Below are positions 4,696 to 50,850 of a stretch of 64,000 bases of DNA, one piece after another (positions within the stretch are counted from its first letter, which is position 1; each line of letters begins with the position of its first letter). The notes beneath the pieces are model-generated. The model saw only the letters and a program-made list of their open reading frames with translations. It made no database searches and was not told the DNA's origin. This stretch comes from Bdellovibrionales bacterium (GTDB lineage: Bacteria > Myxococcota > XYA12-FULL-58-9 > SYDY01): positions 33,765 to 97,764 of the forward strand of contig SYDY01000019.1 of the NCBI GenBank assembly GCA_005801425.1, in the 5' to 3' direction. The translations under genes were made by a program, and so were the position numbers.

Positions 4696-5778
4696 TCAAG
4701 CGGCAGGAAGGGTTTGCAATACGGTGGGTAGTACGGCCTCGCCCAGTTGGCCGCATGCAGCGGCAATGTCTTGCCCGCGCGGGGTACGAAGCCAGGCACC
4801 ATAGCCGCGTTTGCGCAATTCTTCTTGAAAGCGCGCGACCGTAGCGCGGCTCGGCGTTTCAAACGGGGTTTTATTGTGGGCATTCAAGGGAAGAAGATTA
4901 ATTTTTACTGGAATACCATCAAGTAGTTTGGCGAGACGTTGGGCATCTTCAACACTATCGTTGATGTCCTTAAGTAACACGTATTCAATGGTAAATCGTC
5001 GTCTTGGTGCCAGTGGATACCTGCGAAGTGCGCCCAACAATTCGGCAATGGGCCATTTCTTGTTGATTGGCATGATTTTGGTTCTGATTTCGTCGGTGGT
5101 GGCATTGAGTGAAATGGCCAATTGCGTATTGACGGCGCGTCCCAAGTCATCAATGCGGGGGACGATACCCGAGGTGCTCACGGTGATCCGACGGGTTGAA
5201 AACGAGAGTCCCATGGGTTCGAGCATCACTTTGCAGGCTTGCACCACGTTATCAAAGTTAAGCAGAGGTTCGCCCATGCCCATAAACACAATGTTGGTTA
5301 TTTGCGCACCAGGGCCTTGAGGGAGCAGATCGGCCCTTACTGCAAGAACTTGGCCGATAATCTCACCCGCTGTAAGATCACGATGTCGTTTGATGCTGGC
5401 GGTGAAGCAAAATTTGCATCCGACTGCGCAGCCTGTCTGGCTTGAGACGCACAGGGTATTGGTACCACGGCCTGCTGCAACCTCAGGGATGTAAACAGCC
5501 TCGTAGGCGCCGACTGCACCGTCTGAGAATTGATATTTGCGCGTGCCATCGGTTGAAACCTGAACTTGAGCTGGGGGTACAGGGGTAATCGGCATTTCTG
5601 CGTCTATTTTTGCGCGCAGTTCATGGGCCAATGTCGAAATTTCGCTGGCGTGGCCAATACCTTTTCGAAAGACGGCCTCAAAGACTTGGTCACCACGAAA
5701 CTTTGAATGTCCCCATGTGGCCACAAGTTCCCGCCACGCCTCTCGCGTGAGTCCTAGGCCCATACATCGATTGTCCAT
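4696..5778 (-). CDS. rlmN: Dual-specificity 23S rRNA/tRNA adenine C2-methyltransferase RlmN
   Basis: A radical SAM enzyme that methylates A2503 of 23S rRNA and A37 of some tRNAs. The 360-residue protein carries the cluster motif CAVGCKFC, the SAM-binding 'GMGEPLLN' segment and the C-terminal catalytic Cys in 'IAAACGQL', which forms the methylated Cys intermediate. Length matches the family. The ATG at 5778 is used here; another Met lies five residues later. It is the first gene of the rlmN-queG-mla string, with an AT-rich divergent intergenic region upstream. Confidence 0.95.
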   Translation of the reverse strand: MDNRCMGLGLTREAWRELVATWGHSKFRGDQVFEAVFRKGIGHASEISTLAHELRAKIDAEMPITPVPPAQVQVSTDGTRKYQFSDGAVGAYEAVYIPEVAAGRGTNTLCVSSQTGCAVGCKFCFTASIKRHRDLTAGEIIGQVLAVRADLLPQGPGAQITNIVFMGMGEPLLNFDNVVQACKVMLEPMGLSFSTRRITVSTSGIVPRIDDLGRAVNTQLAISLNATTDEIRTKIMPINKKWPIAELLGALRRYPLAPRRRFTIEYVLLKDINDSVEDAQRLAKLLDGIPVKINLLPLNAHNKTPFETPSRATVARFQEELRKRGYGAWLRTPRGQDIAAACGQLGEAVLPTVLQTLPAA

Positions 5779-45144: not shown

Positions 45145-45477
45145 ATGGCCCCACGTGTGCGAACGCAAGAGACGCCTGCCCGTACGACCGTTGAAGTTCG
45201 TTTGCTCGGCCATCGCTTGGTATTAAAAGGCGATGGCGATCACCACAAATTGCAGCGTTTGGCCGATTATGTCCAAGAAAAGCTTGCCGCGGTGCAAAGC
45301 CATGCGTCGAACAAAACCAACGGGCAACGCCTTGCATTGGTGACAGCGCTTAATATTGCCGAGGAATTTTTGCATATTCAAGATGAGTTTGAAGCGTTTC
45401 GTGCGGAGATCATTGCACGATCCCAGGCCATTTTGCTTGAAATAGATGCAGATGCTGAGGCGACCAAGGTGGCATGA
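45145..45477 (+). CDS. zapA: Cell division protein ZapA
   Basis: A 110-residue FtsZ-associated protein: N-terminal strand region 'TVEVRLLGHRLVLKGDGD', then helical 'KLQRLADYVQEKLAAV' and 'NGQRLALVTALNIAEEFL', the typical ZapA pattern. It follows ftsY by 12 bp and is separated from gmk only by a perfect inverted repeat. Confidence 0.87.
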   Translation: MAPRVRTQETPARTTVEVRLLGHRLVLKGDGDHHKLQRLADYVQEKLAAVQSHASNKTNGQRLALVTALNIAEEFLHIQDEFEAFRAEIIARSQAILLEIDADAEATKVA

Positions 45478-45486
45478 TCGTCGTCG

Positions 45487-45572
45487 TCATAAATGGGGAC
45501 ATGCTACATTAACGCGTCATTTTGCAATGCACTTGTTTATGACGCGTTAATGTAGCATGTCCCCATTTATGA
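45487..45572. repeat. Perfect 34 bp inverted repeat between zapA and gmk
   Basis: Arms at 45487-45520 and 45539-45572 are exact reverse complements, with an 18 nt loop. The element starts 9 bp after the zapA stop and its right arm covers both possible gmk start codons (45557 and 45569). There is no T-run after the stem on either side. It looks like an inserted palindromic element (REP/MITE type). Confidence 0.92.
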
Positions 45573-46174
45573 GACGCGGTATTCCTGTTGTGGTGTCGGC
45601 GCCCAGTGGCACTGGCAAAACCACGTTGTGTCATCGTGTGATTAAAACCTTCGGCGGTGCGGAGTTTTCCGTATCGTATACAACCCGTGCTCCGCGCGGC
45701 CATGAGCGTAATGGATCGTCCTATCATTTTGTGTCTGAAACACATTTTGATGAATTGATTGCATCGGGTGCCATGCTCGAATGGGCGCCTGTTTTTGCGC
45801 ATCGTTATGGTACGGGACGCGATTGGGTGTACGAGCGCTTAAACACTGGTGTTGATGTGCTGTTCGATATCGATGTGCAAGGTGGCATGCAGATCAAGAA
45901 AGCGTTGGGTGAAGCGCTTCTTGTGTTTGTCTTGCCGCCATCCATGCAAGAACTTGAGCACCGTTTGCGGGGACGTGGCACCGATACCGAAGAGCAGTTG
46001 CAGATCCGTTTGGGCAAAGCCCGCGATGAGATCGCACGTTCCAAAGATTACGATGTTTTGATTGTGAACGATACGTTGGATATTGCTGTGCATGAATTGG
46101 GGTCATTACTTGTGGCCGATAGGCTCAAACATGTCGATCGCGATGCATTGATTGCACAGGTCCTAGGCTCATGA
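45569..46174 (+). CDS. gmk: Guanylate kinase
   Basis: A 201-residue kinase converting GMP to GDP, with P-loop 'SAPSGTGKTTLC', 'SVSYTTRAPRGHE' and 'FDIDVQGGMQIKKA'. I use the ATG at 45569 (MRRGIPVVV); an ATG at 45557 adds four residues. Both lie within the right arm of the inverted repeat and neither has a visible Shine-Dalgarno sequence, which is odd for an essential gene. The last 4 bp overlap kynB. Confidence 0.93.
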   Translation: MRRGIPVVVSAPSGTGKTTLCHRVIKTFGGAEFSVSYTTRAPRGHERNGSSYHFVSETHFDELIASGAMLEWAPVFAHRYGTGRDWVYERLNTGVDVLFDIDVQGGMQIKKALGEALLVFVLPPSMQELEHRLRGRGTDTEEQLQIRLGKARDEIARSKDYDVLIVNDTLDIAVHELGSLLVADRLKHVDRDALIAQVLGS

Positions 46175-50800: not shown

Positions 50801-50850
50801 CCGTTGGTTAATCGTAGCGGCGCTGCTTGCTGCGCCAAGAGGAACAAATT

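Follow-up and report, generated by a model that had tools for sequence, protein, structure and literature searches.

The TIRtrons, or TIRYT elements, were described in 2013 as RAYT-like genes between long terminal inverted repeats (TIRs) with the motif GGGGWSAS, and the passages of that description used here report TIR repeats both as scattered singles and as head-to-head dimers (Di Nocera et al., PMC3733652). In 2018, most TIRYT were assigned to subclass 2.1 of the TnpA-REP superfamily (PMC6006769). REPINs, the REP doublets of RAYT, also combine two inverted ends and a spacer into a long hairpin and are mobilised in trans by RAYT (Bertels and Rainey, 2011, PMC3116915). A further group that works in a similar way is the CREE/NEMIS elements of Neisseria, which in the passages drawn on here are short, gene-adjacent mobile palindromes that can bring promoters and can serve as RNase III substrates (PMC2649163, PMC5039591).

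We compare these systems with a palindrome at the junction of zapA and gmk in a 64,000-nucleotide stretch of DNA (the window), which belongs to a 3.38-Mb draft genome of 121 contigs (G000). The palindrome is very probably a TIR dimer of the TIRYT/TIRtron kind. Judged by sequence homology and dispersal, it is a non-autonomous element and a new member of a repeat kind already described; it consists of a pair of terminal inverted repeats, joined head to head, from an HUH transposon of the RAYT/TIRYT type (IS200-like Y1_Tnp). The likeness to the TIRtron dimers lies in the RAYT-like transposase, the long GGGGWSAS-type ends and the dispersal as singles and dimers. Compared with the TIRtron passages cited, the dimers here differ in lying at gene starts and in the sigma-54 box carried by most sister dimers.

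Structure of the zapA-gmk junction

The junction comprises the following features, in coordinates of the window.

45145..45477, + strand: zapA, open reading frame (Pfam ZapA, 1.8e-12), with its stop codon at 45475-45477
45474..45512, + strand: possible 12-codon leader ORF, MIVVVINGDMLH*, read from the sequence only, with its stop inside the left arm
45487..45520, + strand: left arm of the palindrome, composed of the outer TCATAAAT and the inward-reading transposon end GGGGACATGCTACATTAACGCGTCAT
45495..45564, no strand: TIR-dimer core GGGG...CCCC, 70 bp, aligned with the other dimers, outer boundary given to within a few bases
45521..45538, no strand: loop of 18 nt, without a sigma-54 box
45539..45572, - strand: right arm of the palindrome, the same transposon end inverted
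45548..45550, + strand: in-frame TAA within the right arm, at which the gmk frame is closed upstream
45557..46174, + strand: gmk, guanylate kinase (Pfam Guanylate_kin, 2.8e-42)
45557..45559, + strand: candidate gmk start 1, element-derived (ATGTCCCC, MSPFMRRGIP...)
45569..45571, + strand: candidate gmk start 2, at the stem base (MRRGIP...), preferred from N-terminus comparison and the accessibility model

The gene order by Pfam is FtsY (SRP54 domains), ZapA and Guanylate_kin, and gmk is single-copy in the genome. An earlier note on this DNA had described exact 34-bp arms with both gmk starts inside the right one. This is confirmed, as the arms form a perfect inverted repeat with 34 of 34 positions complementary around the 18-nt loop, and both ATG 45557 and ATG 45569 lie within 45539-45572. 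Because the in-frame TAA lies at 45548-45550, any ATG start of gmk must fall in the right arm, i.e., at one of these two codons. After ATG 45569, the next in-frame candidates are GTGs past 45585, within the first beta strand. The note had also seen no Shine-Dalgarno site, and we likewise found no match of at least 4 nt upstream of ATG 45557 or ATG 45569; this is weak evidence since many long ORFs of the window also have none. ATG 45557 is element sequence, while ATG 45569 would give Gmk an N terminus of normal length and may be of native origin.

The RNA from 45474 to 45600 is computed to fold at -73.4 kcal/mol (z = -11.5), with equal stability in 0 of 200 shuffles, and the 86-nt repeat folded alone reaches -61.4 kcal/mol. 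In the modelled free RNA both gmk ATGs are paired (unpaired probability 0.0), which agrees with the earlier proposal that the hairpin would hide the gmk start in mRNA. The gmk copy fails as an intrinsic terminator (GC-rich stem plus T run), its stem being followed by GACGCGG. Searches for a + strand terminator, a sigma-70 promoter on the gmk strand, an Rfam family and a tRNA were all empty. The inner arm TTTATGACGCG (45536-45546) is similar to TTTATGAGACGCGG in the right flank (45566-45579), which includes the gmk start; this likeness may be due to chance or to target preference.

Origin of the palindrome

The earlier note had suggested a mobile hairpin that supplied the gmk start, and named as an observation against it an identical junction in relatives together with a palindrome not repeated elsewhere. 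A degenerate arm pattern has 23 sites in the genome and 0 with the reversed control pattern, so the second part of that objection falls away. Seven further genomes from the order have 0 matches to this arm pattern. These genomes are distant, and their gmk junction differs wherever the upstream region was examined; a search of genome contigs for Gmk gave distant matches only. Among the 23 sites are seven inverted pairs.

gmk junction: inverted pair with a core of 70 bp
contigs C9, C23, C49, C56 and C97: five dimers, core length 132-147 bp
contig C1: inverted pair with a core of 989 bp

The arms fall into subtype A (GGGGACATTCCAGAATTACGCGTCA...), found in the five long dimers and at C1, and subtype B (GGGGACATGCTACNTTNNCGCGTCA), found in the gmk palindrome and most single ends. 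Beside the single ends, no decayed second arm clearly exceeded background. The C1 pair encloses a transposase gene that a different insertion has cut in two, and the two halves match Y1_Tnp and the NCBIfam family 'REP-associated tyrosine transposase', each half scoring under the full-length cut-off of the latter. The C1 ends belong to subtype A. The gmk arm belongs to the related subtype B, for which no intact transposase was found in the assembly. The end motif of the gmk arm, GGGGACA (GGGGACAT), agrees with GGGGWSAS at 7 of 8 positions, the last base being T and not S. Since the arm is repeated in inverted pairs, one of which flanks the split RAYT gene, the gmk palindrome is best read as a head-to-head dimer of transposon ends. 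Its identity comes from homology and dispersal, and we infer that it moved into the zapA-gmk junction.

An assembly artefact in the form of a fold-back chimera could be suspected in a draft genome of 121 contigs. This is scarcely credible here, as the site lies in the interior of a 97.8-kb contig with intact genes on either side and the arms are members of a dispersed repeat family. Compared with REPINs, the ends are not GTAG-tagged REP hairpins and the copy number in this genome is far lower. The arm does contain GTAG, but not as the end tag of a small hairpin, and membership of the REPINs was rejected. The ends of the Neisseria CREE/NEMIS elements are unrelated to these arms, and sigma-54 is unmentioned in the passages of PMC2649163 and PMC5039591 used here.

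Related ends occur in a second genome of the phylum that belongs to a different family (G168). Here, GGGGACAGGCTACTTTTCTGCGC has 123 matches, many of them 71-bp dimers, and 0 in the control. The G168 end GGGGACAG agrees with GGGGWSAS at 8 of 8 positions, and the G168 arm shares 20 of the first 22 bases with the B-type arm of contig C77 in our genome and 17 of 24 with the gmk arm. One G168 dimer lies 64 bp upstream of a RAYT gene, so that in G168 a transposase gene stands beside ends similar to B-type. The G168 dimers fall in discrete sizes of 71, 84 and ~100 bp, and the 70-bp gmk palindrome fits the 71-bp class. Another G168 TIR dimer precedes a hemC-like gene.

The flanks of the G168 dimers frequently read GCGCAATAAA-GGGG...CCCC-TTTATTGCGC, which means that part of the outer stretch (ATAAA) may be element and not host. 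The extent of the element at gmk is thus fixed only to within a few bases, which leaves the origin of ATG 45569, native or from the element, equally in doubt. It is likely, taken together with the TIR-dimer identity, that the gmk start lies within the element or right at its border. Of the proposed mobile hairpin that supplied the start, the mobile part is thus borne out by the dispersed paired arms and by ends common to a RAYT-carrying element. Supply of the start is possible only, ATG 45557 being element-derived and ATG 45569 perhaps native.

Pairing extends outward past the GGGG core by 8 bp in the gmk palindrome and by 5 bp in the dimers of C49 and C56. In four of the five A-type dimers, arm positions 26-43 are identical between the dimer's own arms (18/18), whereas between copies a mean of 12.6 of these 18 positions is identical. 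This identity within dimers despite the difference between copies indicates that arm pairing is kept, be it through hairpin selection, fold-back correction or dimer youth.

Every core ends in ATGTCCCC. The gene that follows has the same reading frame as the ATG of this motif at gmk, on C9 (a thrB-like gene), at C56 (+) and at C97, where a signal-peptide gene has its sole available start inside the element (genes beside the C9, C56 and C97 dimers were named by eye from translations). At C23 (+) and C49 the ATG is out of frame, and the genes begin ~2 and 13-25 nt past the core. Unlike REPs, which the passages of PMC3733652 report chiefly downstream of genes, the TIR dimers here sit at gene starts. 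With six copies, this location may reflect tolerance and not targeting.

Translation of gmk

On the folding model, coupling from zapA is our tentative choice for the main route to Gmk. A ribosome ending zapA at 45477 would reach 3-4 bp into the stem and, by opening the stem base, would free ATG 45569. The remaining stem would loop out ~78 nt, which would keep the zapA stop and the gmk start close. When 45460-45490 is masked as the assumed footprint of a terminating ribosome, ATG 45569 becomes ~0.9 unpaired in the model and the upper stem is still closed. The hairpin would then be tolerated at gmk because translation is coupled, with no need for a switch.

The main rival to coupling is processing by RNase III, which we regard as reasonable but less likely. 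Cutting of the stem would separate zapA and gmk and yield a short-leader or leaderless gmk mRNA translated from ATG 45557 or 45569. The stem is perfect over more than 20 bp, the genome encodes an RNase III gene (C97:2158-2541), and the Neisseria CREE/NEMIS palindromes are cut by this enzyme according to the passages of PMC2649163 cited above. However, cutting would leave the gmk mRNA open to decay.

Less probable again is a route through the leader ORF, in which initiation at ATG 45474 and translation of MIVVVINGDMLH would open the left arm, with reinitiation at 45557 or 45569. The leader ATG shares the sequence ATGA with the zapA stop, and the hypothetical empty site TCATGA reads in frame into gmk (MIVVVMRRGIP); in a possible variant, ATG 45474 was the original gmk start before the insertion. 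In the folding model, however, a ribosome at the leader stop leaves ATG 45569 paired. Control of gmk by a regulated translational switch selected for that role, the other reading offered in the earlier note, would make use of the predicted sequestration of both ATGs in free RNA. Such a switch is very improbable, since the same kind of repeat lies beside many unrelated genes and a search for an alternative fold, a ligand site or an Rfam family found none.

The gmk palindrome suggests that an essential gene can tolerate a mobile hairpin across its start codon, and it makes stem-bridged translational coupling directly testable.

Promoter-like boxes in the sister dimers

The gmk copy, including its loop, has no sigma-54 box of the GG-N10-GC form TGGCAY-N5-TTGC, and a scan of the window placed none there either. 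In the A-type arms (those of the five long dimers and of C1, plus one single end), GCAY-N5-TTGC stands at a fixed offset from GGGG in 13 of 13. The full GGCAY-N5-TTGC is present in 11 of these, the remaining two having TGCAY or AGCAY. This -24/-12 box is the innermost conserved block of the A-type arm, and conservation drops to ~0.1-0.5 bit just beyond it. The C1 transposase gene is preceded by a sigma-54-like box, and sigma-54 is encoded in the genome. Each A-type dimer has the box in both arms, and the boxes of C9, C23, C49, C56, C97 and C1 point inward, reading out through the opposite end toward the flanking gene.

In G168, NGGCAY-N5-TTGC is found in the loop at offset 27, on one strand, in 16 of 17 sampled 71-bp dimers and in both of two 84-bp dimers, a count that excludes one region not recognised by the script (L172); three of the 71-mers have the box on the other strand when unrotated. 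One G168 dimer (L160) has GTGC instead of TTGC, and no box was found in the ~100-bp G168 dimers. A scan of 195 genomes of the phylum with the box pattern gave 8 matches in our genome, 8 elsewhere and 2 in the control. With 2 control matches, the single ones in G044, G111, G086 and G100 were not counted as evidence, nor were weak sigma-54 matches close to RAYT genes elsewhere in the phylum.

Copies in the same genome share descent and are therefore not independent. The stronger argument for conservation of the box is that two genomes carry it at different offsets and in different geometry. We put forward, with reserve, that the TIR-dimer palindromes may be mobile sigma-54 promoters that wire host genes to sigma-54. 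Transcription would begin in the dimer's own loop, so the mRNA would escape the hairpin, and the dimer would land just 5' of start codons, sometimes supplying a new start (ATGTCCCC, 'MSP...'). The gmk copy would have lost its promoter or never had one. Alternatively, the box could be a feature recognised by the transposase instead of a promoter.

In open-access papers, we found no description of TIR dimers that combine a conserved sigma-54 box with overlap of start codons, and no literature linking RAYT-related palindromes to sigma-54 control. Should the conserved -24/-12 boxes work as promoters, sigma-54 control would have a route to new genes through RAYT-related palindromes.

Other repeats beside the arms

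The insertion that splits the C1 transposase gene is another inverted repeat, with ends like GGGCTCGTGCAACAATAATCTGTTC, between contig positions 4867 and 5027, and it is absent from the window. Two single TIR ends (C34 and C77:1547) adjoin a GTAG-type REP hairpin, GTAGCGGCGCAGCTTGCTGCGCC, which suggests mosaic repeats. Within the window, the first 13 bases of this hairpin have a single match with one mismatch, at 50814.
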